Shown here: in pieces, positions 6,687 through 26,878 of the stretch
How positions within the stretch are numbered: the stretch's first letter is position 1
How the letters are laid out: each line of letters opens with the position of its first letter
Source of the DNA: Janthinobacterium agaricidamnosum NBRC 102515 = DSM 9628
GTDB lineage: Bacteria; Pseudomonadota; Gammaproteobacteria; Burkholderiales; Burkholderiaceae_D
Length of the DNA: 26,878 nucleotides
NCBI RefSeq assembly: GCF_000723165.1
Contig: NZ_HG322949.1
Coordinates: forward strand, 1,476,018 to 1,502,895
Direction: 5' to 3'
Notes under the pieces: model-generated
What the model was told of the DNA's origin: nothing
Databases searched by the model: none
Seen by the model: only the letters and a program-made list of their open reading frames with translations
Program-made: the position numbers and the translations under genes

Positions 6687-6837
6687 GTGATTACTTTGCT
6701 ACTGAGTGCTGTTGCTGCTTTGCAGCAAGACGCCAAACCGTGGCGCCTGTCTTGTCGATGTCTTGCAACCTGTCCCAGCAGGGAGCATCGTCTGAGTGGC
6801 TGTCCGCAGGCGATGTATTCTCTACTGGGATAGGCTC
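6687..6837 (-). mobile_element. Eroded copy of the GAGCCTATCCC miniature element
   Basis: The right end (6822-6837) is the exact 16-bp terminal repeat CTACTGGGATAGGCTC, followed by TTA at 6838-6840. The inner flank (GGCGATGTATTC, about 6810-6820) resembles the left inner flank of the intact copy at 10033-10190, so the two lie in opposite orientation. The left end at about 6687-6702 is badly eroded, with mostly C-to-T changes, but the adjoining bases (TGAGTGCTGTTGCTGCTTTGCAGC) still align with the other inner flank. Two small hairpins lie inside, at 6712-6728 and 6731-6745. No open frame for a transposase is present. The right end is certain; the left end is a judgement. Confidence 0.65.
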
Positions 6838-6927
6838 TTAGTCCTGGGCTTGTACCTTGAACAGGAAAAAGCGGGTTGCGGTAACTGCGACTGCCAGAAC
6901 AACCAGGCCGTATTCAATGATCATCAT
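6838..6927 (-). CDS. 29-residue single-pass membrane protein
   Basis: The minus strand encodes a 29-residue peptide beginning MMIIEYGLVVLAVAV and ending FFLFKVQAQD. Nearly the whole chain is one hydrophobic helix with a lysine near the C-terminal side. AAAGGAAA stands 6-13 bases before the ATG, a good ribosome binding site. The TAA stop codon is the TTA (6838-6840) that borders the miniature element. The gene lies 63 bp downstream of an 87-residue unknown gene on the same strand and could share its transcript. Small hydrophobic proteins of this kind often modulate larger membrane complexes. I do not recognise the family. Confidence 0.55.
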   Translation of the reverse strand: MMIIEYGLVVLAVAVTATRFFLFKVQAQD

Positions 6928-6990
6928 GATGGATTTCCTTTAAGTTGGTAAGTATTTGAATGCTTTGTAGATTGATACTTTGCCGATTGT

Positions 6991-7254
6991 TTAGCCGCGC
7001 GACGCCATGAAGCGCAGTTCAGCGGCCAGGTTCGGCATCATCTTTTCGTAGCGTGCCGCTTCCGAGGTCAGCACGGCAATATCTTGCTGGCTAGGGCGGA
7101 CATAACGTTCGTCGGCGATCGCGCCGGTTTCTTTTTCAGCGAGGGTTTGATAGGGCTTGGCCGCCAGCAGGGCGCGCAGCAAACCGCGCGCTGCCACTGC
7201 CAGGTTGCGGAAATAGCCGTTGTCTTGTACGTAGTTGCTGGTGATGCTAGTCAT
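6991..7254 (-). CDS. Small hypothetical protein (87 residues)
   Basis: The product has no recognised domain. It starts MTSITSNYVQDNGYFRNLAV, has an alpha-helical, alanine-rich middle (ARGLLRALLAAKPY) and ends with charged helices (EAARYEKMMPNLAAELRFMASRG). No signal peptide, membrane helix or cysteine motif is visible, so it is probably a small cytoplasmic helical protein. GGAGTG before the ATG is an acceptable ribosome binding site, and codon choice is GC-rich at third positions as in real genes here. On the minus strand TTGGAC (7313-7318) and TATTGT (7289-7294), 18 bp apart, could be its promoter. The 29-residue membrane protein follows it. It may be a lineage-specific gene. Confidence 0.65.
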   Translation of the reverse strand: MTSITSNYVQDNGYFRNLAVAARGLLRALLAAKPYQTLAEKETGAIADERYVRPSQQDIAVLTSEAARYEKMMPNLAAELRFMASRG

Positions 7255-7452
7255 GCTTCACTCCATGAATCATGTGATGTTGCATTGCACAATATCGGAG
7301 TTGTGATTATTCGTCCAATTTCAAATTCCAATTTCAGAAATTCGATTTGTGAATAATAGGGGCGTAGAGGTGGTGTTTTGGTGATTGCAACTATTTGTAA
7401 CTTTGAAACAGTGACGTGGTTTCGGCTGGGTTGCCGATGTTGTGATCGAAAT

Positions 7453-7782
7453 TCAAGGTTGCTGGCCTAGACGTTTTTCCAGCAGTGATTTCATGTCGCG
7501 GCGTGTATCCACAATGATATGGATGTACACAACATCCGCTCGAACTTCATAAATGATACGGTTCATGCCCGCTAAGACTTGGCGGTACTTTGTTGTACCA
7601 TATTGCCTGATTTCATCCGGCACTGTACCGGATTGTGGAAACGACTTCAATAAACGTATACTTTTCTTGATTTTGGCGTAACTATCTTGCCAAGTAGTGA
7701 CAGAAAAGTGTTGTATGAGGTATGTTTGCAAATCTTTCAAGTCTTGCTCTGCTTCGTCAAGAACGACAACCCGGGTGTTCAT
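7453..7782 (-). CDS. RelE/ParE-family toxin
   Basis: The 109-residue protein has the RelE/ParE fold signature. A helical hairpin starts with VVVLDEAEQDLKDLQTYLIQHFS, a middle segment reads LKSFPQSGTVPDEIRQYGTTKYRQVLAGMNRIIYEV, and a closing strand holds VVYIHIIVDTRRDM. Arg and Tyr residues in the last two parts (YRQV, RIIYEV, DTRRD) sit where the family keeps its active or gyrase-interaction face. ParE-type toxins poison DNA gyrase and RelE-type toxins cut mRNA on the ribosome; the sequence alone does not decide between them. The gene starts 21 bp after the stop of the antitoxin gene on the same strand and forms an operon with it. No strong ribosome binding site is seen, which would favour coupled, lower translation. 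Confidence 0.85.
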   Translation of the reverse strand: MNTRVVVLDEAEQDLKDLQTYLIQHFSVTTWQDSYAKIKKSIRLLKSFPQSGTVPDEIRQYGTTKYRQVLAGMNRIIYEVRADVVYIHIIVDTRRDMKSLLEKRLGQQP

Positions 7783-7803
7783 CGTTAAACGTCGTTAAGC
7801 AGC

Positions 7804-8061
7804 TTAATCTACATCTGCAAATACATCCTCTGCGTCGCGAAATTTTCCTTGTTGGATTTGTTGCTCTCCCCTCGACAATATCTTCAGCAAAGCCAGCGCC
7901 TGCTCCTTCTCCTCATAGATTTTAACATCCATGACAACCAGTCTGGCTTGGCCGTCTTGTGTGATGACCAGGGGTTCTGCCGTCCCGGACAAGTCTTTGA
8001 GTATATCGCCAGCATCGCTTTGAAGATAACTGATCGGCTTGCTATAAGAATACGTCTTCAT
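7804..8061 (-). CDS. Phd/YefM-family antitoxin
   Basis: The 85-residue product fits the Phd/YefM antitoxins. The N-terminal DNA-binding part (about 1-50) reads TYSYSKPISYLQSDAGDILKDL, followed by the family-typical EPLVITQDGQARLVVMDVKIYE. The C-terminal acidic tail would wrap around the toxin. The ATG at 8061 is preceded at 9 bases by a perfect AGGAGG (8071-8076), so I prefer it over a TTG start two codons upstream. The antitoxin gene comes first and has the stronger ribosome binding site, the usual arrangement that keeps it in excess. It should repress its own promoter, which must lie in 8076-8130. Confidence 0.85.
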   Translation of the reverse strand: MKTYSYSKPISYLQSDAGDILKDLSGTAEPLVITQDGQARLVVMDVKIYEEKEQALALLKILSRGEQQIQQGKFRDAEDVFADVD

Positions 8062-8238
8062 GGCCAAATTCCTCCTGCATCGTTACTTGAATAATCAGTG
8101 TAGACGTAATCGCTACGGCTATCCAGTCTGTTTGAGTGCGGGTTGAGGCAAACTTGATAGCGCTCATCGCCAATACCAGATTGCTTCGTCCCACGACCAG
8201 CCTCCTCCAATGCTGCGGCCGCGGGCGGAGCAGAGTGC

Positions 8239-8850
8239 TCAGAACACCGGCAATTGCAACACTTGTTCGGTGCTCAGGATATCGGCAAAGGTGTCGGCCA
8301 GCGTCACCAGCGACGCCGCATGCAGCGTGGCATGGCCGACCACGCTGCCATTCGCGGCGTCCAGGTCGCGCGTGGCGCAGGCGTCTTCGGCGACGATCAC
8401 GTCATAGCCGGCCGGCACCGCGTCGCGGGTGGCGCCCGATACGCAGGCATGCGTCATCAAGCCGCTGATGATCAGCGTCTTGATGCCAGCGGCTTTCAGG
8501 CGTGCATCGATATCGGTGCTGGCAAAGACGCTGACGGTGCTTTTCCGAATCACTTGATGGCCTGCTTGAGGTTGCAACTCGGCATGGAATTTTACGTTGT
8601 CGCCATGGTCGGCAAAGATCGGCGAGCCGGCCGGCGTCACGTGCTGGACATGAAATACTGGAATCTGGTGCCGGTCGGCCAGGGCGATCAGGCGCTGGGC
8701 GTTGTGCAGCGCCTTGATGCCATCCGGAATCGGCAGCTTGCCGCTGAAGTATTCATTCTGGAAGTCGATCACCAGCAAGGCGCTGCTGCTGGCGGTGATG
8801 TGGCGCGCGGCGGTGGCGCCGGCGATGGTGCGGATGCTTGGATGGTTCAT
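8239..8850 (-). CDS. Isochorismatase-family cysteine hydrolase
   Basis: The 203-residue protein shows the catalytic triad of the family: Asp29 in LLVIDFQNEYF, Lys103 in VIRKSTVSVF and Cys136 in LMTHACVSGATRDA, which includes the cis-peptide segment before the cysteine. Such enzymes hydrolyse isochorismate, nicotinamide or other amides and carbamates. The substrate is not clear here. The gene is transcribed away from a GlxA-type regulator gene 122 bp upstream, which suggests that the regulator controls it. Length is normal. The last coding bases are 10 bp from a GC-rich stretch without a clear terminator. Confidence 0.9.
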   Translation of the reverse strand: MNHPSIRTIAGATAARHITASSSALLVIDFQNEYFSGKLPIPDGIKALHNAQRLIALADRHQIPVFHVQHVTPAGSPIFADHGDNVKFHAELQPQAGHQVIRKSTVSVFASTDIDARLKAAGIKTLIISGLMTHACVSGATRDAVPAGYDVIVAEDACATRDLDAANGSVVGHATLHAASLVTLADTFADILSTEQVLQLPVF

Positions 8851-8935
8851 GGTCGATTCCTCTGTCGGTGATTAAAAAAGCCGCAATGGCTGGCGTGCAG
8901 GAAAAAGTATAGGCCGCCGCCTTTTCATCTGTAAG

Positions 8936-8970
8936 TGGCCCGAAAGCCAAATAATGATAGGATTGGGCCA
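8936..8970. promoter_or_regulatory. Dyad TGGCCC-N23-GGGCCA in the divergent gap
   Basis: Two 6-bp inverted arms (8936-8941 and 8965-8970) flank an AT-rich spacer directly before the GlxA-type regulator gene and opposite the isochorismatase gene. The position suits an operator used by the adjacent AraC-type regulator. The arms are short, so chance is possible. Confidence 0.25.
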
Positions 8971-8972
8971 TC

Positions 8973-9959
8973 ATGATAATTTCATCACTTTCCACTGGCC
9001 AGCACACCATCGCGCTGATCGCCTTTGACGGCATTAGTCCGTTTCATTTGTCGGTGCCTTGCATGGTGTTTGGCGACGACCTGGCCCGGCTCGGCATTCC
9101 CCGTTACCGCTTGCTGATTTGCGCACAACAGACGGGCACGGTCCGTACCATGTCGGGTTTCAATATCGAGGTCGAGCATGATCTGTCCGCCGTGGAGCAG
9201 GCCGATACGGTGATCGTTCCCGCCTGGCGCGATCCGGATGAAACGCCGCCCGAGGTATTGCTGGAAGCGTTGCGCAGCGCGCAGCGGCGCGGCGCGCGCA
9301 TCGTCGGCCTGTGCCTGGGCGCGTTTGTGCTGGCCGAAGCCGGCTTGCTCGACGGCCGGGCGGCATCGACCCATTGGGCATGGGGCGACGATTTCGCCAA
9401 GAAATATCCGAAGGTAAAGCTGGACCGCAAAGCGCTGTATGTCGACGATGGCGACATCATGACCTCGGCCGGCACCGCCGCCGCCATCGATTGCTGCCTG
9501 CATTTGCTGCGCCGCGATCACGGCGCCGAGGCGGCCAACAAGATCGCCCGCCGCATGGTGGTCGCGCCGCGCCGCGACGGCGGCCAGGCGCAATATATCG
9601 AGCAGCCTGTGCGGCAGGGCAGCGGTGGCGACTTGCTGGCCAGCACCCTGGATTGGGCCATCGCGCATCTGGATCAAAGCTTGACGCTCGATACGCTGGC
9701 GCAAAAGGCGGCGATGAGCCGGCGCAATTTTACGCGGCGTTTTAAAATGAAATGCGGCAGCACGGTGTCGCAATGGCTGTTGAATCACCGGCTGGCGGCC
9801 AGCCAGCGCTTGCTCGAAACTACCGACACGGCCATCGAGCGCATCGCCGAAGCGGTCGGCTTTGGTTCCGCCGTATCGTTGCGGCAGCATTTCATGGCGG
9901 CGTTTTCGATCTCGCCGGCCGCTTACCGGCGCCAGTTCAGGCTGTCCCGCGAGACTTGA
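8973..9959 (+). CDS. GlxA-family transcriptional regulator (DJ-1/PfpI plus AraC HTH)
   Basis: The 328-residue protein has two domains. Residues about 10-180 form a class I amidotransferase-like DJ-1/PfpI domain, with the nucleophile-elbow cysteine at Cys114 in VGLCLGAFVLAEAGLL and the helper segment STHWAWGDDF. Residues about 215-325 form an AraC-type pair of helix-turn-helix motifs, with SLTLDTLAQKAAMSRRNFTRRF and IERIAEAVGFGSAVSLRQHF. Regulators of this class sense small nitrogen compounds or amides and activate adjacent catabolic genes. The divergent isochorismatase-like hydrolase is the likely target. No Shine-Dalgarno is evident before this ATG. A perfect terminator follows. Confidence 0.9.
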   Translation: MIISSLSTGQHTIALIAFDGISPFHLSVPCMVFGDDLARLGIPRYRLLICAQQTGTVRTMSGFNIEVEHDLSAVEQADTVIVPAWRDPDETPPEVLLEALRSAQRRGARIVGLCLGAFVLAEAGLLDGRAASTHWAWGDDFAKKYPKVKLDRKALYVDDGDIMTSAGTAAAIDCCLHLLRRDHGAEAANKIARRMVVAPRRDGGQAQYIEQPVRQGSGGDLLASTLDWAIAHLDQSLTLDTLAQKAAMSRRNFTRRFKMKCGSTVSQWLLNHRLAASQRLLETTDTAIERIAEAVGFGSAVSLRQHFMAAFSISPAAYRRQFRLSRET

Positions 9960-9970
9960 CGGCGCATAAA

Positions 9971-10004
9971 AAACGGCCCGCTTCCGGTAAGGAGCGGGCC
10001 GTTT
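9971..10004 (+). terminator. Intrinsic terminator after the GlxA-type regulator
   Basis: AAACGGCCCGCT (9971-9982) pairs perfectly over 12 bp with 9993-10004 around a 10-nt loop. An A-run precedes it and T's close it, so it can work on both strands. It lies 12 bp after the regulator stop codon. Confidence 0.85.
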
Positions 10005-10032
10005 CGCCAGGCGCTATCAGGCTGGATGCTTA

Positions 10033-10190
10033 GAGCCTATCCCAGTAGATGAATACGCCCTCTTCTGGCGCCCCTCAGCAGCGGGGACTGCGTTGATCGT
10101 CGTCGCGTGGCCCGCCACGCTTGCTCCTCACGCCTGGTCCGCACTGCTGATGCGCTGCCAGCAGAAGACGCTCACTACTGGGATAGGCTC
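10033..10190. mobile_element. Intact 158-bp miniature transposable element with TTA duplication
   Basis: The ends are perfect 16-bp inverted repeats, GAGCCTATCCCAGTAG (10033-10048) and its complement (10175-10190). Both are flanked by the direct repeat TTA (10030-10032 and 10191-10193). There is no coding capacity for a transposase. Internal palindromes include GCGTGG-CCCG-CCACGC (10105-10120) and CCCC-N7-GGGG (around 10071-10085). Ends starting GAGCC together with a TNA target duplication resemble IS5-family insertion sequences of the IS1031 group, so it is probably a MITE mobilised by such a transposase; that link is inference. The right TTA is the stop codon of the phosphodiesterase gene read on the minus strand. 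Confidence 0.85.
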
Positions 10191-11324
10191 TTAGCCGCCG
10201 ACGGCGATCTTGCCGAGACCCGGATCGTCGCTGAAGAAACCGTCGATGCCGGTGTCGATATAGCGTTTCATTTCGGCGATCGAACCCGCTTCGTTGCGGC
10301 TGTTCGGGCCCTGGCCGTCGCGGAAGTCCGCCGCCAGGAACTGGTTTTCCGGGCGGAAGGTCCAGATGTGCACCAGCAAGCCTGCCTTGTGCGCATCGTC
10401 GACCAGCGAGGTCGGCGCCAGCAAGCGCTCATCCTTGCCCAGCGGGATGATGCCACGGGTCGGCGGCGCCACCACGTCGGCGTAGCGGGCGATGTCGCGC
10501 AGGCCGGACGGCGTCAGCATGTCGTTGAAGGTCAGCTTGCCGCCAGCGGCCGCCACATCGCTCGGGCGCAGCGGCATGTCGACCACCAGCTGCATCAGGC
10601 GCATATTGGCTGGCTTGCCCAGCTTGCCGCGCAAGTATTTCAGGTTGGCGATTTCAAACGACTGGATCTCGACCGGCGCGCGGCGGGTATATTCGTGCGC
10701 TTTCAGGATGTCGACAAAACGGTCTTCCATCGGCAAGCCGACCGACGCGAAATAGGTCGAGCTTTTCAATTCCGGCACGATGCCGATGATGCGGCCCTGG
10801 GCGGCCGATTCGGCGGCGACGAAATCGATGATTTCTTCGAAGGTGGGAATCTGGAATTGACCGTCGTAGCGGGTATTGTTCGGGCGAACTTTCGGCAAGC
10901 GTTCGATCGCGCGCAGCGTCTTCAATTCCGCCAGCGTGAAATCGTCGACGAACCAGCCGTCATGGGCTTCGCCATCGACGGTCTTCTTGCTGCGGCGCGA
11001 AGCGAATTCCGGCCGTTGCGCGACGTCGGTGGTGTCGGTCATATGGGTTTCATGACGCGCCACCAGCACGCCGTCGCGGGTCGAGACCAGGTCCGGCTCG
11101 ATATAGTCGGCGCCGTCGCGGATCGCCTTGGCGTACGACGCCAGCGTGTGTTCCGGACGCAGCGCGCTGGCGCCGCGGTGGGCGAACACCAGCGGCGGCG
11201 GCGCTTCGGTCGGCAGCAGACGGCTGGCGGCGAAGGCCGGCATGGACGCCAGCGCGATGCCGCCGGCGCTGGCTTTCATGAAACTACGGCGCGAAAAGGC
11301 GCGCAAGGGATTGTGTTGATCCAT
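10191..11324 (-). CDS. Glycerophosphodiester phosphodiesterase, Tat-exported (GlpQ-like)
   Basis: The enzyme releases glycerol 3-phosphate from glycerophosphodiesters such as glycerophosphocholine. The 377-residue protein begins with a twin-arginine signal (SRRSFMK at residues 11-17, then a hydrophobic stretch ending in MPAFA), so it acts in the periplasm. The catalytic GDPD domain fills about residues 44-370, with AHRGASALRPEHT at 48-60 (His49, Arg50, Glu58), the metal ligands in YIEPDLV (Glu76, Asp78) and His91 in ARHETH. The ATG overlaps the stop codon of the TonB receptor gene by one base (TAATG), so translation is coupled. The stop codon TAA coincides with the target duplication of the adjacent miniature element. 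Together with the Pho-box-like promoter this suggests phosphorus scavenging. Confidence 0.92.
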   Translation of the reverse strand: MDQHNPLRAFSRRSFMKASAGGIALASMPAFAASRLLPTEAPPPLVFAHRGASALRPEHTLASYAKAIRDGADYIEPDLVSTRDGVLVARHETHMTDTTDVAQRPEFASRRSKKTVDGEAHDGWFVDDFTLAELKTLRAIERLPKVRPNNTRYDGQFQIPTFEEIIDFVAAESAAQGRIIGIVPELKSSTYFASVGLPMEDRFVDILKAHEYTRRAPVEIQSFEIANLKYLRGKLGKPANMRLMQLVVDMPLRPSDVAAAGGKLTFNDMLTPSGLRDIARYADVVAPPTRGIIPLGKDERLLAPTSLVDDAHKAGLLVHIWTFRPENQFLAADFRDGQGPNSRNEAGSIAEMKRYIDTGIDGFFSDDPGLGKIAVGG

Positions 11325-13762
11325 TAAAACTCCGCAGTCAAAGTCAGGAAGCCCTGACGTGGTGGGATAGGGAAGGTATTGTAGGTACCGCTGGCGGCGC
11401 CGACCACCACGTTCAGCGAACCTTCGCGGTTCATCAGGTTGCTGACCGTGACTCTCCAGCGCGGATTTTTCAGCCAGCTGGCCAGCGCCGGCAATTTGCC
11501 GGACACGCCCAGGCTGGTCAGGAAGTAGCCCGGTACCGACAAGTCGTTGGTGTAGGTTGCGTAGCGTTTGCCCTCGTAATCGCCGATCAGTTGAACTTCG
11601 ACATCGCCGAGATTAGCCGTGGCGACAAATTTATTCATCCACTCCGGTGCGCCCGGCACGATCTTGCCAGCCGTCGGCACCACTGCCGCGCCGTTGTTGT
11701 AGTTATCCGAATACAAGGAACGGTTGTACGACAATGCATTGTAGAACGAGAAGGTGCGGCCGAAGTGCAATGTTCCAGAAAGATCGATACCGTCGGTGCG
11801 CACGCTGCCGACGTTGGCCAGCACCGGATTACCGCCGATGATCGCCGAAATCACCGGCGTCGGGCTGATCTGCAGCAAGCGGTTGCTGAAATCGACGTGG
11901 TACAGATTGACCTGGCCATCGATAGCAGTCAGCGGACCGAGGTCGAGCTGGTGATTGCCGCGTATCCCGGCTTCATAGGTGACCGAGGTTTCCGGCTTGG
12001 CGTTGTCGCGGAACAGGTCGAACGCGGCCTGGCTGGCCAGGCTCCATGGCGATGCGCCGCCGCCGCCGTAGGTGACGAACTGGCGCAAGTTTTGCTGGAC
12101 GTTGACATACAGCTGGTCGCGCGGCGTGAAATCCCAGCGCGCGCCGATTTGCGGCAAGAACCATTTTTTGGTGTCGATCTGGCCGACCGGCAAGGCGGTC
12201 GAACCGCCGGCGATCGCGCCCTTCAGCGGCTGGACCGGGAATTGGCCATCGGCAAATTGCAGGCTGGACTTGAAGCCGGCTTGCAGCGACAGGTCAGGAC
12301 GGATGCGCCATTCATCTTGCAAATGCCACTGGAACACGCGGTTGTTGATGTCGCTGCCGTACTGGGTGATCAAAGGATTGACCGGACGGTCGTAGGGCGA
12401 GCTTGGATTGTTGACGTCCAGCGCGTACCAGCGGCGGTAGGCCGACGATTTGTTCTGCTCGAACCAGGCGCCCATTTCAATCTGGTGGTTGCCCCATTCC
12501 TTGCGCAGGTTCGAGATAAAGCCGCCGCGGTTGATCTGGTATTCGGTGGTGCGGGTGGCGTAGCCGGAATTGCCGAACACTTGCTTCAAGTTCTGGTTCG
12601 GGTAATACACGCCGAACAGCGCCGGCAAGCCCGCCACGCCGATCGGGCCGGCCACCACGCCGACGCCGTCGTCGTTGTGGTAATACACCTGATTGGACCA
12701 GGTCAGCGTGTCGCTCAGGTTGGCGTCGAACTTGGCGTAGGCCAGGTAGTCGGTGCGTTGCGCATCGCTGTAATAGTTGCGGTAGTTATTGCCGTCGGCG
12801 GCAGGCGTGGCGCCGGTCGGCGACAGATAATTCAGCGCGGCGCCGAAATTCGGATACAGGAACGGGCGGGTGTACGGCGCGCTGGTTTCGCCGGCCACGT
12901 GCACGGTGCTGTCTTCGTTCGGTTCGATCTTGTCGGAGTAGTTGAAGAACAGCGTCAGCTTGCCGGCGTCGCTCTTGTTGACGAACTTCGCGTTGACCTG
13001 GTCGCCGCCCTGGCGGCCGTCGAAATCCCAGGCGTGGGCTTCATGGTGCAGCACCGAAATATAGGCGCTGTTGCCTTCGCCAAACACGCCGCTATCGTAG
13101 CGCAGGAAGGTGCGCGACGTCTTGTGGCTGCCGACGGTTTGCTGGATGCTGCCGCCTTGCCTGGCCAGCGGATCGCTGGAATAGGTTTCGATGGTGCCGC
13201 CCAGGTTGCTGGTCGACGCGGTCGCCAGGTCGCCGGCGCCGGACGACAGCACCACGCTGCTGACGTTTTCGCTGATCACCGCGCGTTGCGGCGACAAGCC
13301 GTTGTAATTGCCGTATTGCTGGTCGCCCAGCGGTACGCCATCCATGGTGTAACCCAGTTGCTGGCCGCTGAAACCATGCACGAACAGCGACAGGTTTTGT
13401 TCGTTATTGCCCCAAGGGTCGGCGGTCTGGAAAGCGACGCCCGGCAAGGTTTCCAGCGCTTTTAAGGGATTGGTGCCCGGCAGGATTTTCTGGATTTCCG
13501 CCTTGTTCAAGGCCACCGAGGAACGGGTCTTGTTGGACGAAACTTCCACCGTGGCGATCGGCGTCGCATCGACCGCGCCACTGGACGAAGCGGCGGCGTC
13601 CGCCATTGGCGCCGCCATGTCGCTGGCGGCCGCCGCCACCGCCGCCGCGACGGCGGTTTGCGCAAAGGCGGGCATGCTTAGCGCAACGGCACAAACGGCG
13701 CCAGCAGCAAGCAAAACGTGGGGAGAGCCGCGGCGTGGCGCCGACTTCAATTTCTGGTTCAT
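11324..13762 (-). CDS. TonB-dependent outer-membrane receptor
   Basis: The 812-residue protein starts with a Sec signal peptide cleaved after PAFA (about residue 34). A TonB-box-like VEVSSNK is at about residue 73, then a plug domain of roughly residues 80-210 (LKALETLPGVAFQT, FVHGFSGQQLGYTMDGVPLGDQ, VVLSSGAGDLATASTSNLGGTI). The rest is a long beta-barrel rich in aromatic girdle residues that ends in phenylalanine (LTLTAEF), the usual barrel-insertion signal. It is translationally coupled to the periplasmic phosphodiesterase and has a Pho-box-like promoter, so the likely cargo is a phosphodiester or a phospholipid-derived compound rather than an iron chelate. That substrate is an inference. 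No strong Shine-Dalgarno is seen before the ATG. Confidence 0.92.
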   Translation of the reverse strand: MNQKLKSAPRRGSPHVLLAAGAVCAVALSMPAFAQTAVAAAVAAAASDMAAPMADAAASSSGAVDATPIATVEVSSNKTRSSVALNKAEIQKILPGTNPLKALETLPGVAFQTADPWGNNEQNLSLFVHGFSGQQLGYTMDGVPLGDQQYGNYNGLSPQRAVISENVSSVVLSSGAGDLATASTSNLGGTIETYSSDPLARQGGSIQQTVGSHKTSRTFLRYDSGVFGEGNSAYISVLHHEAHAWDFDGRQGGDQVNAKFVNKSDAGKLTLFFNYSDKIEPNEDSTVHVAGETSAPYTRPFLYPNFGAALNYLSPTGATPAADGNNYRNYYSDAQRTDYLAYAKFDANLSDTLTWSNQVYYHNDDGVGVVAGPIGVAGLPALFGVYYPNQNLKQVFGNSGYATRTTEYQINRGGFISNLRKEWGNHQIEMGAWFEQNKSSAYRRWYALDVNNPSSPYDRPVNPLITQYGSDINNRVFQWHLQDEWRIRPDLSLQAGFKSSLQFADGQFPVQPLKGAIAGGSTALPVGQIDTKKWFLPQIGARWDFTPRDQLYVNVQQNLRQFVTYGGGGASPWSLASQAAFDLFRDNAKPETSVTYEAGIRGNHQLDLGPLTAIDGQVNLYHVDFSNRLLQISPTPVISAIIGGNPVLANVGSVRTDGIDLSGTLHFGRTFSFYNALSYNRSLYSDNYNNGAAVVPTAGKIVPGAPEWMNKFVATANLGDVEVQLIGDYEGKRYATYTNDLSVPGYFLTSLGVSGKLPALASWLKNPRWRVTVSNLMNREGSLNVVVGAASGTYNTFPIPPRQGFLTLTAEF

Positions 13763-13823
13763 CTAGTAAGCCTGTAAAAGACAATTGGTTAGAATGCGAC
13801 GCAGCGCAGCGTAACCAGCTTAT

Positions 13824-13852
13824 GTGACAGCTTGATGACCGGAAAATGACGA
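13824..13852 (-). promoter_or_regulatory. Pho-box-like site with three PhoB half-sites
   Basis: Read on the minus strand the units are TCGTCAT (13852-13846), CGGTCAT (13841-13835) and CTGTCAC (13830-13824), separated by 4-base spacers, giving an exact 11-bp period. The last two units with their spacer match 15 of 18 positions of the PhoB consensus CTGTCATAWAWCTGTCAY. The site ends 61 bp before the receptor start codon, a usual distance. A weak TACGCT that could be the -10 lies 10 bases downstream, which is where PhoB-activated promoters have it. Confidence 0.65.
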
Positions 13853-13875
13853 TTGTGTGAAATTTTAATGAAGAA

Positions 13876-13913
13876 AAGCGGCGCCTGATTCTTTGCAGAA
13901 TGAGGCGCCGCTT
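13876..13913 (-). terminator. Intrinsic terminator downstream of hslO
   Basis: AAGCGGCGCCT (13876-13886) pairs perfectly with AGGCGCCGCTT (13903-13913), and ATTC/GAAT extends the stem inside after one mismatch. On the minus strand a TTTTCTTCATT stretch follows, so it terminates the hslO transcript before the TonB receptor operon. About 115 bp without a recognised feature lie between it and the hslO stop. Confidence 0.8.
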
Positions 13914-14028
13914 GGCCGATGCTTCCTGAAGATGGCCTGAATGTTTGCTGAGTTAACTTTAAAGATAGCCTGCCTGGCAAAACGTTGAGGGCAATGCAAC
14001 GCCGCCATGGACGTTTTGTCGGACGCTC

Positions 14029-14982: not shown

Positions 14983-14988
14983 GGTGCT

Positions 14989-18471: not shown

Positions 18472-18502
18472 GATGGCAACTTCATAAAAGAATCAGCCTG
18501 AC

Positions 18503-19126: not shown

Positions 19127-19205
19127 CTTCGGCCGCAACGCCTATTTATGCGGCCGTGGCGGGGCCGCGACTGGCAAGCAATCCGGCTCTGGTAGAATTC
19201 CGCCC

Positions 19206-19877: not shown

Positions 19878-19883
19878 GCCGCC

Positions 19884-21086
19884 ATGTATCCCGACCGTGT
19901 CGTTTCCGGCATGCGCCCGACTGGCGCGCTGCACCTTGGTCATTATCATGGCGCCCTGAAAAACTGGGTGCGCCTGCAAAGCGAGTTGCCTTGCCTGTTT
20001 TTCGTTGCCGACTGGCATGCGCTGACCACCCATTACGACGATCCGTCGCTGATCGAGCGCAGCACCTGGGACATGCTGGTCGACTGGCTGGCGGCCGGCG
20101 TCGATCCGTCGCAATCGACGCTGTTCATCCAGTCGCGGGTGCCGGAACATGCCGAGCTGCATTTGCTGCTGTCGATGGCCACGCCGCTGGGCTGGCTGGA
20201 GCGGGTGCCGACCTATAAGGACCAGATTGAAAACCTTGCCAGCAAGGATTTGGCGACCTACGGCTTTCTCGGTTATCCGTTGCTGCAGGCGGCCGACGTG
20301 CTGATTTACCGCGCCAGTCAGGTGCCGGTCGGCGACGACCAGGTGCCGCACGTGGAAATGATGCGCGAAATCGCGCGCCGCTTTAACCATTTGTACGGCA
20401 AGGAAAAAGGCTTTGAAATCAAGGCCGAGGAAGCCGTCAAGAAGCTCGGCAGCAAGCGCGCCAAGCTGTACAAGGAATTGCGGATTGCCTATCAGCAAGA
20501 AGGCGAGGACGAGGCGCTGGAGCAGGCCAAGGCCATGCTCGACGACGCCCAGAGCCTGTCGATGATCGACCGCGAGCGGCTGTTCGGCTATCTGGAAGGC
20601 AGCCGCAAGCTGATCCTGGTCGAGCCGCAAGTGCGCCTGACGGCCGCGTCGCGCCTGCCGGGCCTGGATGGCCGCAAGATGTCCAAGAGTTACGGCAATA
20701 CGATCGCCTTGCGCGAAGACAAGGATGTGGTCGCCAAGAAAGTGCGCACCATGCCGACCGATCCGGCGCGGGTGCGCCGCAGCGACGCCGGCGATCCGGC
20801 CCGCTGCCCGGTGTGGCAATTGCATCAAGTGTATTCCCCGATCGACGTGTGCAGCTGGGTCGACAAGGGCTGCAAATCGGCCGGCATCGGTTGCATCGAA
20901 TGCAAGCAGCCGGTGATCGACGCCATCGTCAAGGAGCAGGAGCCGATGCATGAACGGGCCCAGCCTTACCTGGACGATCCGTCGCTGGTGCGCGCCATCG
21001 TTGCGGACGGTAATGACACGGCGCGCAAGCTGGCGCAGGAAACCATGCGCGATGTGCGCGAAGCAATGGGATTGGTGTACAACTAA
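19884..21086 (+). CDS. trpS: Tryptophan-tRNA ligase with a four-cysteine insert
   Basis: The enzyme attaches tryptophan to tRNA(Trp). The 400-residue protein has the class I signature HLGH at 17-20 (GALHLGHYHG) and KMSKS at 265-269. It is longer than the E. coli type (334) through an insert of about residues 175-245 and a C-terminal cysteine cluster. The cysteines are Cys308, Cys330, Cys337 and Cys340, spaced C-X21-C-X6-C-X2-C; Cys323 is extra. The Thermotoga enzyme binds a [4Fe-4S] cluster with a C-X22-C-X6-C-X2-C motif, so a metal or iron-sulfur site is likely, although spacing differs by one residue. The stop codon overlaps the start of the next gene by one base. Confidence 0.95.
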   Translation: MYPDRVVSGMRPTGALHLGHYHGALKNWVRLQSELPCLFFVADWHALTTHYDDPSLIERSTWDMLVDWLAAGVDPSQSTLFIQSRVPEHAELHLLLSMATPLGWLERVPTYKDQIENLASKDLATYGFLGYPLLQAADVLIYRASQVPVGDDQVPHVEMMREIARRFNHLYGKEKGFEIKAEEAVKKLGSKRAKLYKELRIAYQQEGEDEALEQAKAMLDDAQSLSMIDRERLFGYLEGSRKLILVEPQVRLTAASRLPGLDGRKMSKSYGNTIALREDKDVVAKKVRTMPTDPARVRRSDAGDPARCPVWQLHQVYSPIDVCSWVDKGCKSAGIGCIECKQPVIDAIVKEQEPMHERAQPYLDDPSLVRAIVADGNDTARKLAQETMRDVREAMGLVYN

Positions 21087-21643
21087 TGGAACAAGCGATG
21101 GAAAAAATTTCTTGCTGGGTACAACGCTGGGCGCCGCTGGTGCCGAGCGGCGAAGTGCTGGACCTGGCCTGCGGCGCCGGCCGCCATGCGCGCCACCTGG
21201 TGACGCTGGGGCACCAGGTGATGGCGCTGGATCACGATCCGGACATGCTGGCGCAAGTTTGCGGGCAGGGCATCGTCACCTCGCAAGTCGACCTGGAAGC
21301 GCCGGGCGCGGTGTGGCCGTTCGCGGCAGGGCGTTTTGCCGGCATCGTGGTGACCAATTATCTGCACCGCCCGCTGCTGGAAAACATGCTGCGCAGCCTG
21401 GCGCCGGATGGTGTATTGATCTATGAAACCTTTGCCGATGGCAATGCCGAATTCGGCAAGCCGTCGAATCCGGCATTTTTATTGCAGCCGGGAGAAATGC
21501 TGGCCTGGGCGGCCAGCCACGGCTTGCGCGTGGTGGCCTTTGAGGATGGCCGGGTCGACCATCCAAAAGCTGCTATGGTGCAACGTTTATGCGCCGTCAA
21601 GCCGGATTTTCCACGGCAGGCGGCGCTTCTTGCGCCGTTTTGA
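21086..21643 (+). CDS. Class I SAM-dependent methyltransferase
   Basis: The 185-residue protein shows the Rossmann SAM-binding signature [15 protein letters not shown] near residue 26-40 and the acidic motif [13 protein letters not shown] after it. [23 protein letters not shown] follows as motifs IV to V. It belongs to the small-molecule methyltransferase group related to TehB. The substrate is unknown. Its ATG overlaps the trpS stop codon by one base, so translation is coupled to trpS. An internal ATG at 21098 (MEKISCW) is an alternative start. dapA follows after an 83-bp gap that has its own promoter-like TACAAT. Confidence 0.85.
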
Positions 21644-21688
21644 GCGGTGATTCACTGTCAAGATGCACCACAGGCGCGGGCTATCCGC

Positions 21689-21694
21689 TACAAT
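21689..21694 (+). promoter_or_regulatory. Putative -10 box of dapA
   Basis: TACAAT lies 32 bases before the dapA ATG. The -35 region at 16-18 bp has no good match to TTGACA. A second TATACT at 21718-21723 is too close to the start codon to direct a usual leader. Confidence 0.4.
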
Positions 21695-21726
21695 CGTTGT
21701 TTTATTTATCGGCGCACTATACTTAT

Positions 21727-22605
21727 ATGATTAAGGGCAGCATTGTAGCAATCGTTACCCCGATGCACGCTGACGGCAGCCTGGACTTTCCAGGTTTGCG
21801 CAAGCTGATCGATTGGCATATTGCCGAGGGTACAGACGGCATCGTGATCGTTGGCACCACCGGCGAATCGGCAACTGTGAGCGTGGAAGAACACTGCGAA
21901 CTGATCAAGCTGACGGTCGAACATGCCAAGGGCCGGATTCCTATCATCGCTGGCGCTGGCGGCAATTCGACCGCCGAAGCCATCAAGCTGACCCGTTACG
22001 CCAAGGAAGCCGGCGCCGACGCGGTGCTGCAAGTCGTGCCGTATTACAACCGTCCGACCCAGGAAGGCATGTACCAGCACTTCAAGGCCATCGCCGAAGC
22101 GGTCGATATCCCGGTGATCCTGTACAACGTACCGGGCCGTACCGTGGCCGACATGAGCAACGACACCATCGTGCGCCTGTCCGCGATTGCCAATATCGTC
22201 GGCGTCAAGGACGCCACCGGCAATATCGCGCGCGCGATCGACTTGCTGCGCCAGGTGCCGGCCGATTTTGCCGTGTATTCCGGCGACGATCCGACCGCGC
22301 TGGCGCTGATGCTGTGCGGCGGCCATGGCAATATTTCGGTGACCGCCAACGTCGCGCCGCGCGCCATGCACGAACTGTGCGTCGCCGCCATGGCGGGCGA
22401 GCGGGCCACTGCGATCGCGATCAATAACAAGGTTTTCCCGCTGCATCAAAAGCTGTTTGTCGAGCCGAATCCGGTGCCGGTCAAATGGGCGCTGGCGGAA
22501 ATGGGCTTGATGCCGGCCGGCCTGCGTTTGCCGCTGGTAGCGTTGTCGGCCGACTGCCATGATAGTGTCAGGAAGGCTTTGCGCGACGCCGGCGTATTAC
22601 AATAA
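21727..22605 (+). CDS. dapA: 4-hydroxy-tetrahydrodipicolinate synthase
   Basis: DapA condenses pyruvate with aspartate semialdehyde at the first step of the lysine and diaminopimelate branch. The 292-residue protein has Lys161, the Schiff-base residue, in VGVKDATGN. Tyr133 is in ILYNVPGRT, the helper segment is GTTGESATV (43-51), and [14 protein letters not shown] is at 106-119. Length matches E. coli DapA. I chose the ATG at 21727 because the longer frame starting at 21589 would add 46 residues without enzyme similarity. Gene order dapA-bamC is the same as in E. coli (dapA-nlpB). Confidence 0.96.
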
Positions 22606-22668
22606 GACTATCAGCCCGGCCGAGTTCGGTCCGGATACTTCCGTTTTAGCTTCTTAACCAGTAACGAC

Positions 22669-23850
22669 ATGACTAATCGCAAGAAACTTAACCCGGCTTC
22701 CTCCGCCATCGCCGTTCGCGGCCTCGTCATTGGCGCCGTCGTGGCCAGCCTGAGTGGCTGCGGCATGATCAGCTCCGTTGTCGGTGGCAACAAGCTCGAC
22801 TACAAGTCGGCCAAGAAGGCCAGCACGCTCGACGTGCCGCCCGACCTGACTCAATTGCAGGCAGATAACCGTTACTCGTTGCCGGACTCCAAAAATGGTA
22901 TCGCCACGGCATCCGGCTACAATGCGCAAAAAGGCGTATTGCCGGGCACAATCGTCACTTCCGCCGGTATCACCACGGTGGTGCCGCTCAGCGCCGGCGA
23001 CGTGCGCGTCGAGCGTTCCGGCAACCAGCGCTGGCTGGTCGTCAAGCAGGCGCCGGAAGTGTTGTGGCCGCAACTGAAGAAATTCTGGGAAGATTCGGGC
23101 TTCACGCTGGAAACGGATGCGCCGACCGCCGGCATCATGGAAACTGCGTGGAATGAAAACCGCGCCAATATCCCGCAAGACTTTATCCGCAGCACTATCG
23201 GCAAGGTATTCGATTCGCTGTATTCGACCGGCGAGCGCGACAAGTTCCGCACCCGCGTGGAACGCCTGGCGGATGGTTCGACCGAGATCTACATCAGCCA
23301 TCGCGGCGCCCAGGAAGTGTTGACCGGCTCGCAAAAGGACACCACGACGTGGACCGCGCGTCCCAACGATCCCGGCCTGGAAGCCCAATTCCTGGCCAAG
23401 CTGATGGAGCGCCTCGGCAGCACCGAAGAAGCGCAAGCGAAGACCGCTATCGACAGCGCCGTGGTGCAGCCGCTGCACGCCAAGCTGGTCGGCGAAGGCG
23501 CTTCCCGCGGCGTGGAAGTGGATGAAGGGTTCGACCGCGCCTGGCGCCGTGTCGGCCTGGCGCTGGACCGGGTCGGCTTCACCGTCGAAGACCGCGACCG
23601 CATCCAGGGCACGTATTTTGTGCGCTATATCGATCCGGATTCGGTCAAGACCGAAGGCTTCTTCACCAAGCTGTTCAGCTGGGGCTCGTCCGACAAGGAA
23701 AAGGACAAGGATGCGCAGCGCTACCGCGTCTCGGTCAAGGCCGGCGCCGGTTCGACCAGCCTGGTGACGGTATTGAACAACGAAGGCAAACAAGATGCTT
23801 CGGCCACTTCCGAGAAGATCCTCGGCTTGCTGAACGAGCAGCTGAAGTAA
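22669..23850 (+). CDS. bamC: Outer-membrane assembly lipoprotein BamC (NlpB)
   Basis: BamC is a lipoprotein of the beta-barrel assembly machinery. The 393-residue protein starts with a lipoprotein signal peptide whose lipobox is LSGC, so Cys31 is lipidated. The unstructured N-terminal part that binds BamD follows (DYKSAKKASTLDVPPDL), then two helix-grip domains at about 120-225 and 275-390. PPDLTQLQADNRY is the conserved signature near the start. The protein is longer than E. coli BamC (344). The first serine after the lipidated cysteine is not an inner-membrane retention aspartate, so outer-membrane sorting is expected. A perfect terminator follows. Confidence 0.94.
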   Translation: MTNRKKLNPASSAIAVRGLVIGAVVASLSGCGMISSVVGGNKLDYKSAKKASTLDVPPDLTQLQADNRYSLPDSKNGIATASGYNAQKGVLPGTIVTSAGITTVVPLSAGDVRVERSGNQRWLVVKQAPEVLWPQLKKFWEDSGFTLETDAPTAGIMETAWNENRANIPQDFIRSTIGKVFDSLYSTGERDKFRTRVERLADGSTEIYISHRGAQEVLTGSQKDTTTWTARPNDPGLEAQFLAKLMERLGSTEEAQAKTAIDSAVVQPLHAKLVGEGASRGVEVDEGFDRAWRRVGLALDRVGFTVEDRDRIQGTYFVRYIDPDSVKTEGFFTKLFSWGSSDKEKDKDAQRYRVSVKAGAGSTSLVTVLNNEGKQDASATSEKILGLLNEQLK

Positions 23851-23885
23851 TCGGAGGAGGGCGCTGGAAACGGCGCCTTGCTTGC

Positions 23886-23914
23886 AAAAAACCGGCCGCT
23901 GGCCGGTTTTTTTT
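23886..23914 (+). terminator. Intrinsic terminator after bamC
   Basis: The stem CCGGCC/GGCCGG (23892-23897 and 23901-23906) is extended by the flanking A/T run, and eight T's follow at 23907-23914. It lies 36 bp after the bamC stop codon. Confidence 0.92.
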
Positions 23915-23961
23915 ACGCCTGTTTTACGTCTGGCGGCGCTGGAAAGGAAAGCGGCAGACGT

Positions 23962-23990
23962 AAAAAAGCCGACCCGAAGGTCGGCTCTTT
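23962..23990 (-). terminator. Terminator of the Ala/Pro-rich lipoprotein gene
   Basis: AGCCGACC (23967-23974) pairs with GGTCGGCT (23979-23986) around a CGAA tetraloop. The run of six A's on the left becomes a T-tract on the minus strand, directly after the lipoprotein gene. It could also act on plus-strand read-through from bamC. Confidence 0.85.
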
Positions 23991-24005
23991 TAATGCCGGC
24001 TGATA

Positions 24006-24248
24006 TTACTTAGCAGCGGAAGCAGCTGGAGCCGAAGCAGCAGCGTCAGCAGGAACCGAAGCGGCTGGAGCAGCAGCGTCAGCAGCTGGAGCGGCAGCAG
24101 GAGCAGCAGCGTCAGCGGCTGGAGCGGCTGGTGCTGGAGCAGCAGCAGGAGCTTCTACGACTGGTGCTGGTGCTGGTGCTTCTTCTTTTTTGGTGCAAGC
24201 AGCCAAAACAACAGCCATCAGGGAGACGATCAGCAGGGATTTTTTCAT
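24006..24248 (-). CDS. Small Ala/Pro-rich lipoprotein
   Basis: The 80-residue product has a lipoprotein signal peptide with the lipobox LAAC, so Cys18 is lipidated after cleavage. The mature part starts TKKEEAPAPAP and then consists almost only of Ala, Pro and Asp in repeated units such as AADAAAPAA. No folded domain is possible in this composition, so it is probably a flexible tether or spacer on the periplasmic face of a membrane. GGAAAA stands before the ATG. The gene has an unusually long predicted leader with a palindrome, listed separately. Function is unknown; repeats of this kind vary in length between strains. Confidence 0.8.
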   Translation of the reverse strand: MKKSLLIVSLMAVVLAACTKKEEAPAPAPVVEAPAAAPAPAAPAADAAAPAAAPAADAAAPAASVPADAAASAPAASAAK

Positions 24249-24295
24249 GGGTTTTCCTTAATTATTTCAAAATAAAATCAACAATGTTGCGATGA

Positions 24296-24313
24296 ATAAT
24301 TACCGGTAATTAT
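24296..24313. promoter_or_regulatory. Perfect 18-bp palindrome upstream of the lipoprotein gene
   Basis: The sequence ATAATTACCGGTAATTAT is a perfect palindrome centred between 24304 and 24305, about 48-65 bp before the lipoprotein start codon. A dyad without spacer is a typical operator for a dimeric repressor, or could be the core of a hairpin in the leader RNA. No regulator can be named. Confidence 0.5.
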
Positions 24314-24388
24314 CGCTCGTTAGGTCGTCTTCGAAGGCTTTTCGTACCAAGAGGTGCCTGCCAGACAACGGAAACTTCCTAACCGAAT

Positions 24389-24394
24389 ATTATA
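24389..24394 (-). promoter_or_regulatory. Putative -10 box of the lipoprotein gene, long leader
   Basis: On the minus strand TATAAT occupies 24394-24389, with TATTGC at a 17-bp spacing upstream. If used, the leader is about 130 nt, well above the typical length here, and it would contain the 18-bp palindrome. The remaining 24249-24547 stretch has no supported gene. Confidence 0.4.
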
Positions 24395-24547
24395 GCGATT
24401 TTTGGTGCGTCGCAATAGGAGCAAGAGGCAATTTCGCAACTATTTTGTGATAACGCAAGAATTACCGGAGCATTCCGATTGTAGTTCAATAATATTTGCG
24501 CCAGGACTGATTTTTGCGATGTAAATCGAGCATTTTTTTGACCTGGC

Positions 24548-25024
24548 TCATAATCCCGTAAGAGTAACATGCAGGCCCGGTATTGACTCGTCCCATAGGG
24601 CATCGAAGCGCTGGGCTTGAATGAAGAAATCTTCAGGATTTCCGGTGCTGGCGACACCCCGGAGTTGGTCTTTATGGAAGCGGCGCACCATATGGTGCCC
24701 ATCGGCAATACAAAAGGAATCACTAAGCTGGCGCAGCTGCCGGCTGGTGACGCGGCATTCGACGGCATGGCTGAAGTCCTTCAGCAAGCGCAGGAAACGC
24801 GGCTGTTGACGTTCCAGGTAATGCTGATCATGGGTAATCAACTGAATCCGGCCATTGCCGCTTAATAAGCGCCGCAATTGCACATCGGTTTGGCTGGAGC
24901 CAAGTTGCCACAGGGAAAAATCAGCATCGAATAATTGCAATCGAGATTGGGCGCTGGAAAAGCACAGCTGCAACTGGGTTTCAAAATCCTTGCGGCTTGA
25001 AAATTCCACACGGTGCTTTTCCAT
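24548..25024 (-). CDS. PLD-like DUF protein next to roxA
   Basis: The 158-residue protein resembles the uncharacterised PLD-like family that accompanies ribosomal oxygenase genes (I recall it as a DUF7931-type domain). Strand segments RLQLFDADFSLWQL (28-41) and GRIQLITHDQHYLERQ (58-73) fit a phospholipase D-like fold. The later motif ADGHHMVRRFHKDQLRG (108-123) contains a His-Lys-Asp, but it is a single copy and not the full HxKxxxxD pair. It is probably a non-catalytic binding domain. The start codon is 11 bp after the roxA stop codon, so it belongs to the roxA operon. Function is unknown. Confidence 0.75.
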   Translation of the reverse strand: MEKHRVEFSSRKDFETQLQLCFSSAQSRLQLFDADFSLWQLGSSQTDVQLRRLLSGNGRIQLITHDQHYLERQQPRFLRLLKDFSHAVECRVTSRQLRQLSDSFCIADGHHMVRRFHKDQLRGVASTGNPEDFFIQAQRFDALWDESIPGLHVTLTGL

Positions 25025-25035
25025 TATGTGCCCTC

Positions 25036-26160
25036 TTATTTGGCGAATTCCAGCCAGCCATCCTGATACCAGGTGTACAGCGCATCCATCACGTCGTCGG
25101 AGGCGCTGGCCAGCGCGCTCCCGTCGAGCGCGCGCTGGTTGGCCAGCGCTTCCAGCGTGACCTTGTCGGCGCGGCCGATGGCGAACGATTCGCCGTTGAT
25201 GAAGACGTTCTTGCCACGGTACAGCATCAAGGTCTTGCGCGACAGGGCCAGGCCTTTTTTAGCGGCGCTGCTGGCGAAGCGTTCCGGCGTCAGCGGCTTG
25301 GCCACCGGCGTGAAAAACACATTGTGCTTGGGCTCGGACAAATGTTCGCCGAGGAAGATGGTGACGTCGTCTTCGGTGAAGCGCACCTTGTTCATTTCAT
25401 CGGCGATGGTGCTGAGCATATGGCGCGGGATTTCCGCCGGGTTTTTCGCCACCTCCAGTTCCGGATCGGCGTAACGGCCCGGCAAGTCGATCGAGTCGGC
25501 CATGAATTGCAGGAACGCTTCGCCCAGCTCCTGGTACGACGGCGAACGGAAACCGATCGAATACGTCTGGCAATCGCCGATCGCCACGCCGTCGTGGGCG
25601 TAGTGCGGCGGCAGGTACAGCATGTCGCCCGGTTCCAGCACGAATTCCTGGTCCGGCTTGAATTTGCTCAGTATCTTCAGCGGCAAGCCTTCGACCAGGC
25701 TCAAGTCCTTTTGCGCGCCGATCTTCCAGCGGCGCTGGCCTTGCGCTTGCAGCAGGAATACGTCGTACGAGTCGAAGTGCGGACCGACGCCGCCGCCATC
25801 GGTGGCGAAGCTGACCATCAGGTCGTCCAGCCGCGCATCCGGGATGAAGCGGAATTGGCGCAGCAATTCGTCGGCCTTGCCGTTGTGCAGGTTGACGCCT
25901 TGCACCAGCAAGCTCCATTCCTTTTGCTTCATCGGCGGCAGGCTGTTCAGCGGGCCTTGCTGCATCGCCCATTCGCCGTCGGCATGGCTGACCAGGCGCG
26001 CTTCGACGTCGTCGCGGGTCGCCAGCGCGGCCAGCGCGGCCACGTCGAGGAACGGTTTGAAGCCGGGAACGGCCTGGCGTATCAATAAGGGTTTTTTATG
26101 CCAGTAATCGCGCAAAAATTGCGCCGGCGTAATGTCGCCGAGGAGAGTGAATTTTTTCAT
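25036..26160 (-). CDS. roxA: Ribosomal protein uL16 arginine hydroxylase (RoxA/YcfD-type cupin)
   Basis: The 374-residue protein is a Fe(II)/2-oxoglutarate oxygenase of the JmjC-like cupin group. The iron ligands are His128 and Asp130 in GVGPHFDSYDVFLLQ and His189 in PPHYAHDG, in the same positions as in E. coli YcfD. The N-terminal segment (FLRDYWHKKPLLIRQAVPGF) and the C-terminal part with PRHML and FFTPVAKPLTP also fit. E. coli YcfD hydroxylates an arginine of ribosomal protein uL16 (L16); the same target is expected here. A PLD-like protein follows in the operon, and slyD diverges upstream. Confidence 0.9.
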   Translation of the reverse strand: MKKFTLLGDITPAQFLRDYWHKKPLLIRQAVPGFKPFLDVAALAALATRDDVEARLVSHADGEWAMQQGPLNSLPPMKQKEWSLLVQGVNLHNGKADELLRQFRFIPDARLDDLMVSFATDGGGVGPHFDSYDVFLLQAQGQRRWKIGAQKDLSLVEGLPLKILSKFKPDQEFVLEPGDMLYLPPHYAHDGVAIGDCQTYSIGFRSPSYQELGEAFLQFMADSIDLPGRYADPELEVAKNPAEIPRHMLSTIADEMNKVRFTEDDVTIFLGEHLSEPKHNVFFTPVAKPLTPERFASSAAKKGLALSRKTLMLYRGKNVFINGESFAIGRADKVTLEALANQRALDGSALASASDDVMDALYTWYQDGWLEFAK

Positions 26161-26259
26161 GGCTACATTATATCAAGCAGTAAAGCGCCAGCGGCAAAGG
26201 GGCGGCATCGCGCCGGTGGCAAGACAGCGACAGATTCGCGCCGGGCCGGGCGAACGGGG

Positions 26260-26265
26260 TATAAT
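26260..26265 (+). promoter_or_regulatory. Putative -10 box of slyD
   Basis: A perfect TATAAT lies 30 bases before the slyD ATG, with a very GC-rich stretch and no good -35 upstream. AAGGAAG at 26285-26291 serves as the ribosome binding site. Confidence 0.5.
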
Positions 26266-26295
26266 TTGCCAGCTTATACAATGAAAGGAAGCACA

Positions 26296-26844
26296 ATGAA
26301 GATTGCCAAGAACACGGTCGTGACTGTCAACTACAAACTGTCGGATGCGCAAGACAATTTGATCGAAGATGGCCGTCAGCCTATGGTCTATTTGCACGGT
26401 GATTATGAAAACACCCTGCCTAAGATCGAAGAAGAGCTGGATGGCAAGGAAGTTGGCTACTCCAATACTATTCAGATCGAACCGGATGACGCGTTCGGCG
26501 AATACGACCCGGCGCTGGTCAAGGTCGAGCCGCGCGCTCGCCTGCCTGAGCCGCTGGAAGTGGGCATGCAATTCGAAGGCATGCCGGAAAGCGATTCGGC
26601 TGACGAAGAAGCGATGATCTTCACCGTCACCGATATCGCCGACGACAAGGTCGTTCTCGACGGTAACCATCCACTGGCCGGCATCGCGCTGCGTTTTGCG
26701 CTGACCGTGGCCGACGTGCGTGAAGCCACCGACGAAGAAATCGCCCACGGCCACGTGCACGGCGCGCATGGCCACGCACATGACGATGAAGATGATGGTG
26801 ATGAAGAATCGGGTGATCACTTCCGTACTCATCCGATTCACTAA
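26296..26844 (+). CDS. slyD: FKBP-type peptidyl-prolyl isomerase SlyD
   Basis: SlyD is a cytoplasmic prolyl isomerase and chaperone that also binds nickel and other metals. The 182-residue protein has the split FKBP domain (VTVNYKLSDAQDNLIEDG, FGEYDPALVKVEPRARLPEP) with the insert-in-flap domain at about 75-120. NHPLAGIALRFALTVADVREAT closes the fold. The C-terminal tail (about 151-182) is rich in His and Asp and acts as a metal-binding region. I chose the ATG at 26296 because it has a good ribosome binding site and family N-terminus; the longer frame from 26098 overlaps roxA. The TAA stop is directly followed by the end of a miniature element. Confidence 0.94.
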   Translation: MKIAKNTVVTVNYKLSDAQDNLIEDGRQPMVYLHGDYENTLPKIEEELDGKEVGYSNTIQIEPDDAFGEYDPALVKVEPRARLPEPLEVGMQFEGMPESDSADEEAMIFTVTDIADDKVVLDGNHPLAGIALRFALTVADVREATDEEIAHGHVHGAHGHAHDDEDDGDEESGDHFRTHPIH

Positions 26845-26878
26845 GAGCCTATCCCGGTAGATGAATACGCCCTGTTCT
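26845..26878 (+). mobile_element. Partial copy of the GAGCCTATCCC miniature element at the window edge
   Basis: The first 16 bases are GAGCCTATCCCGGTAG, one base different from the intact copy, and the following 18 bases (ATGAATACGCCCTGTTCT) differ from it at one base. The orientation matches the intact copy. TAA at 26842-26844, the slyD stop codon, occupies the target-site position. The rest lies outside the window. Confidence 0.85.

Follow-up and report, generated by a model that had tools for sequence, protein, structure and literature searches.

The Repeat and Its Three Copies in the Window

The window considered here is a stretch of 26,878 nucleotides (positions 1,476,018-1,502,895) of the 5.95-Mb single-contig genome of Janthinobacterium agaricidamnosum NBRC 102515 = DSM 9628, and it carries three copies of a short inverted repeat that, judged by its sequence, is a miniature inverted-repeat transposable element (MITE) of the IS5 family, IS1031 group. 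The initial annotation had placed an in-frame TAA stop codon directly beside each copy, and all three stops are there, at 6838-6840 (minus strand), 10191-10193 (minus) and 26842-26844 (plus); no strand is assigned to the copies themselves. Copy 2 (10033-10190), a near-palindromic 158-bp element recognized by its fold and by the 98 paired copies in the DNA fetched for analysis, is the only one of the three that combines full length with a perfect duplication. Its left TTA (10030-10032) is not a stop of a neighboring gene, and its right TTA (10191-10193) is the TAA stop of a minus-strand gene for a GDPD-family phosphodiesterase (10191-11324; Pfam PF03009). Copy 3 (26845-26878), the first 34 bases of the repeat, is 94% identical to the consensus and truncated by the end of the window, past which the genome sequence is masked; it follows the TAA of a plus-strand slyD-like gene (26296-26844), which has a weak FKBP_C match just under the Pfam cut-off and orthologues in 29 relatives.

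Copy 1 (6766-6837) reads best, from its sequence and fold, as a 72-bp variant, with a good end at 6822-6837, found at G000:C1:1482839 among the genome matches listed, and a degenerate end at 6766-6781, CAACCTGTCCCAGCAG, adjoined by TTG where TTA would be expected. The TTA on its good side (6838-6840) is the TAA stop of a minus-strand gene for a short hydrophobic protein of 29 amino acids (6838-6927), which has no Pfam match and resembles open reading frames (ORFs) of relatives. Short variants of ~56-76 bp with the same ends also occur at G000:C1:4443836, 3205284, 4930401, 5540129 and 2347749, and together with 6766-6837 they possibly form a subfamily of their own. Given the genome-wide rate of 41% reported below, three of three copies at stops has a probability of 0.07, and the run within one window is partly owed to luck.

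Size of the Family and Its Target Site

The end of the repeat, GAGCCTATCCCNGTAG, has 224 matches in the genome at up to 2 mismatches, vs 6 for a reversed control pattern. For the analysis, 77 regions of 20 kb (1.54 Mb) were fetched, chosen around elements; beyond 3.69 Mb, copies were reached mainly via exact ends preceded by TAA, TTA or TSA, so that intact duplications are favored there. Paired copies in the fetched DNA number 98, and a further 27 ends, with up to 3 mismatches, lack a partner (a number of these are surely chance matches); copy number in the genome is ~100. Exactly 158 bp are found in 70 of the paired copies, the remainder ranging from 30 to 239 bp, and 76 of the 98 are flanked by the identical TWA on both sides. 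At three places (G000:C1:2989206-2989524, 320405-320738 and 1234991-1235195) neighboring copies lie head to tail and have one TWA in common. A match to the repeat end was present in 29 of 40 genomes of the same genus, and in these relatives 80 of 94 candidate regions, with at most 21 candidates scored per genome, yielded 81 paired copies at 64 distinct sites, 41 of them with intact TWA (15 relatives); none of the 64 corresponds to a site found in J. agaricidamnosum. The repeat is thus short, bounded by terminal inverted repeats and a target duplication, present in many copies and devoid of a gene, as MITEs are. Among the titles and abstracts listed in searches of open-licence PMC, none deals with this repeat family or with such insertion at stop codons.

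A TNA target duplication had been proposed initially, and it has to be narrowed: among 162 exact ends preceded by TNA the triplet is TAA in 89, TTA in 71 and TSA in 2, so that TWA accounts for 160. The bases around the duplicated triplet form a palindrome, A-C-[TWA]-G-T, approximating ACTWAGT with the core CTWAG. This core is a stop on either strand, CTAAG giving TAA in one direction and TAG in the opposite one.

Copies at Stop Codons

With gene calls from a home-made predictor trained on the fetched DNA, 31 of the 76 intact-duplication copies in this genome overlap a stop in frame (TAA in 26 cases and TAR in 6, with both at one copy), as do 27 of the 41 intact distinct sites in the 15 relatives; pooled, 58 of 117 copies sit at stops. 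This rate leaves out the unpaired ends and the 22 of 98 copies without identical TWA flanks, 5 of which also adjoin a stop. The TAR stops, 13 cases in both sets, are built from the TA of the duplicate and the element's own G, and wherever the base before insertion could be read (12 cases) the codon had been TAA or TAG (12/12). Four copies (G000:C1:3739031-3739188 and those at loci L179, L198 and L244) coincide with both stops of a convergent gene pair; in each the two stops overlapped within a single target, and after insertion each gene has a stop to itself. Gene-disrupting insertions were also considered, and the intact-duplication copies first classed as coding proved to be TAR stops of this kind; one copy without an intact duplication is classed as coding. 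In relatives, two genes extend 16 nt into the element.

The suggestion that insertion copies the stop and leaves the protein end as it was is borne out by comparison with 29 relatives. In all 29 the slyD orthologue stops at the same place (25 TAA, 4 TGA) and the GDPD orthologue at the same place or one codon earlier, and the element was not seen in the 45 nt after these stops. A similar ORF without the element was found for the 29-residue gene in all 11 relatives read, downstream of the same neighbor. These counterparts are hydrophobic, ~27-31 amino acids long, without a Pfam family and located downstream of the same 87-aa gene. Elsewhere in the window, two small minus-strand ORFs of 109 and 87 amino acids (7453-8067) resemble a RelE/ParE-type toxin-antitoxin pair.

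Since the gene predictor was home-made and elements guided the choice of regions, the whole pattern could be spurious, a product of gene prediction or of region choice. This is very improbable, however: 32 genes end at intact-duplication copies here, and, leaving aside one that is divided between two fetched pieces, 30 of the 31 scanned match a Pfam family, including class II tRNA synthetase, transaldolase and RNase H. The effect, moreover, recurs in 15 other genomes, and the background sites used for the tests below come from the same sequences as the copies.

Stop Codons Compared with Other TWA Sites

Of the noncoding TWA sites in the fetched DNA, TAA stops account for 8.3% and TAR stops for 2.3% (~11%). 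The chance test used the 73 of 76 copies with readable flanks and assumes, as do all the chance tests given here, that sites are independent: 29 copies were observed at stops vs 7.8 expected if any noncoding TWA were used (p 9e-11). When sites were weighted by the target motif, with weights learned from the non-stop copies, the expectation rose to 12.9-15.8 (~18-22%), still well below the 29 observed (p 8e-6 to 3e-4). Because unpredicted genes could inflate the background, the count was repeated in gaps of at most 350 bp, which cover 52 of the 76 copies here and 24 of the 41 sites in relatives. In this genome 27 of 52 copies were at stops, vs 9.9 expected and 14.1 with the motif (p 1e-4), and in relatives 21 of 24, vs 5.3 and 10.6 (p 1e-5). 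Among 3'-side sites alone, motif-weighted, stops made up 27 of 42 here vs 53% expected (p 0.09) and 21 of 24 in relatives vs 69% (p 0.04), so the excess is not clearly present within this class.

Perfect CTWAG sites are occupied at 26 of 97 stops, 27 of 186 other intergenic positions, 4 of 5 positions up to 12 nt beyond a stop and 0 of 49 coding positions (stop vs intergenic p 0.016; stop vs coding p 1e-5). Double-stop sites were not clearly preferred over single stops, 2 of 5 such perfect CTWAG sites being used (p 0.61). On a count of the kind that the initial annotation had envisaged, made over the fetched copies, stops are therefore used more often than other TWA sites, and equal use was not seen. 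Whether this meant a targeting preference or the outcome of selection had been left open there; part of the stop excess is due to the CTWAG-like motif, and the rest is common to stops and the bases just beyond them.

The Favored Zone at the 3' Ends of Genes

The latter point emerges from a logistic model of both sets (51 copies here and 24 sites in relatives) that combines motif bases and position, with 3'-side sites more than 30 nt away as reference. The motif itself carries odds ratios of ~24 each for C at -1 and G at +3. After this correction the odds ratio is 3.8 at stops (p 0.003), 4.8 at 0-12 nt past the stop (p 0.006) and 1.4 at 13-30 nt; with gaps of up to 1000 bp the values are 3.9, 6.0 and 1.3. 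An excess common to stops and to the 0-12 nt beyond them indicates an effect of the gene's 3' end and not recognition of stop codons, and the favored zone is the 3' boundary of the gene, not the stop codon alone. In relatives taken separately, 0 copies were found at 0-12 nt vs 0.6 expected, so that this class rests on the present genome. On the other side of genes, copies within 60 nt of a gene start number 5 vs 14.5 expected here and 0 vs 5.6 in relatives.

The explanation we favor, at a probability of roughly 0.68, is that the target spells stops, the element's ends restore them and selection removes the copies that land elsewhere. A MITE family probably moved in trans by an IS5-family transposase of the IS1031 group, as its ends and target suggest, would insert into a palindrome approximating ACTWAGT and duplicate the central TWA, as the flanks of the copies bear out. 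The first G and last C of the element would then rebuild a stop on both sides, which is what the TAR-stop copies display; with this G and C in place, a stop on either strand can survive beside its own gene. In noncoding DNA such motifs are supplied abundantly by TAA stops; selection would purge insertions inside genes and thin those just upstream of them, and the copies still present would be those at stops or directly past them. The stop codon need not itself be recognized.

Several observations weigh against this explanation. Stops and the 0-12 nt beyond them still exceed other 3'-side sites that should be about equally harmless, and the drop within 60 nt of gene starts is not significant in the logistic model (odds ratio 0.40, p 0.14; 0.36, p 0.06 with gaps of up to 1000 bp). 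Copies at stops depend less on C at -1 than others do (interaction p 0.017 and 0.009). Divergence shows no difference between copies at stops and the rest (p 0.45), which gives no sign of slow filtering, and a filtering of copies by age was rejected on this result.

The same observations can be read as steering of the transposase, or of a host partner, to gene 3' ends, with CTWAG merely deciding the local choice and with transcription termination, exposed single strands or supercoiling as possible cues. The narrow peak at stops and at 0-12 nt, back to baseline by 13-30 nt after motif correction, would fit such steering, as would the relaxed -1 base, the 27 of 41 relatives' sites at stops and a divergence unrelated to stop placement. 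Yet perfect CTWAG is also used in other intergenic DNA (27/186), the stop excess among 3'-side sites is marginal and the zero coding insertions are accounted for by selection alone, and we regard steering as rather unlikely. About as doubtful is a combined form, in which the system is tuned to gene 3' boundaries through a stop-bearing palindrome and G/C rebuilding with an added pull to bases at or just past stops.

RNA Structure at the 3' End

That the insertion places a structured RNA at the end of a transcript offers another reading, namely that copies near stops are retained for a useful hairpin at the mRNA 3' end, through transcript protection or the end of transcription, a role also proposed for other small bacterial repeats. 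The element folds into one long hairpin (-101 kcal/mol, z -9.7), and fewer native terminators are predicted at 3' ends that bear it: 11 of 111 (relatives not de-duplicated) vs 67 of 398 for all controls (p 0.08) and 78 of 299 for TAA-stop controls. Terminator prediction was crude, and this deficit is weak evidence; the idea that native terminators bound the 3' zone is suggestive only. The element terminates in GGCTC followed by TWA and lacks a T-tract, which distinguishes it from a classical intrinsic terminator; no terminator-like site was found in 9900-10300 of the window, and a useful hairpin seems to us rather improbable, more so than steering. A search of the window against Rfam gave 0 matches above the gathering score. 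Visual inspection reveals a strong hairpin with a T-run on the minus strand at 9971-10004, which the terminator scan of 9900-10300 did not report; it sits ~25 nt past the GDPD stop if the element is discounted, which would place copy 2 between the stop and a likely terminator.

Related Transposases and Comparable Repeats

Three genes with PF13340 occur in this genome, one of which begins beside an end identical to that of the repeat and is broken, its sequence being partly masked. Its DNA gave one weak 78-base match in the rest of the genus, and an intact autonomous copy was not found by DNA search of the 40 same-genus genomes. Among 28 loci, on plasmids and in genomes, that carry related transposases, 25 have a left end of the type GARCYTATCCC, adjoined by TWA at 23 and by TCA or TTG at the others. 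One of these relatives, ISAzo38, found on an Aromatoleum plasmid, overlies the stop annotated for an oxidoreductase fragment of 150 nt. When open frames of at least 90 codons are taken in place of predicted genes, however, just 4 of the 25 left ends fall at the end of one; stop placement is thus not obvious for the autonomous relatives, a further point against the explanation favored above. At locus L169 (9495-10557) the broken transposase lies within a region bearing an apparent nonribosomal peptide synthetase (NRPS)-like ORF, and the transposase is itself interrupted by a second transposase-like ORF.

The repeat resembles the IS1031 group (ISAzo38, ISPrst3, ISLrh) and derived MITEs in its GARCYTATCCC ends, its 3-bp TWA/TNA duplication and the PF13340 transposase of the remnant, the group being described as having a TNA target and a 3-bp repeat (PMC12016507). 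It differs in being a gene-free, near-palindromic 158 bp in ~100 copies with strong stop placement. REP and BIME sequences likewise lie near gene 3' ends, and the ends of GTAG REPs often supply TAG stops (PMC3733652), but they are 20-40 bp long, are associated with tyrosine transposases in that source and lack a 3-bp duplication restoring an old stop. Membership in this class, whose palindromes carry a GTAG or CGTC tag, was rejected, as the repeat has 158 bp, long inverted ends and a TWA duplication; no search for a tyrosine transposase was made. BOX and SPRITE of pneumococcus are also small repeats at gene 3' ends, and of 58 genes overlapping a BOX repeat, 36 have their stop encoded by it (PMC3049150); in the present family, by contrast, the pre-existing stop is copied and preserved, and stops are already contained in the target motif. 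The RUP, ERIC and Correia MITEs are similarly short, with inverted ends, a target duplication and a folded RNA, and mRNA effects have been proposed for ERIC (PMC2229807), but their target is TA and their end sequences are other ones.

Significance

Because the target spells stop codons, about half of the well-preserved copies, here and in relatives, are on a stop, with the protein unchanged. The last codon and 3' flank of many genes in this genome form part of a transposon insertion, which matters for annotation. A target that spells stops, together with ends that restore them, would be a simple route to a harmless mobile element, and if the family were in addition tuned to 3' boundaries, this tuning and the rebuilding of stops even between overlapping convergent genes would amount to a built-in strategy of safe landing.

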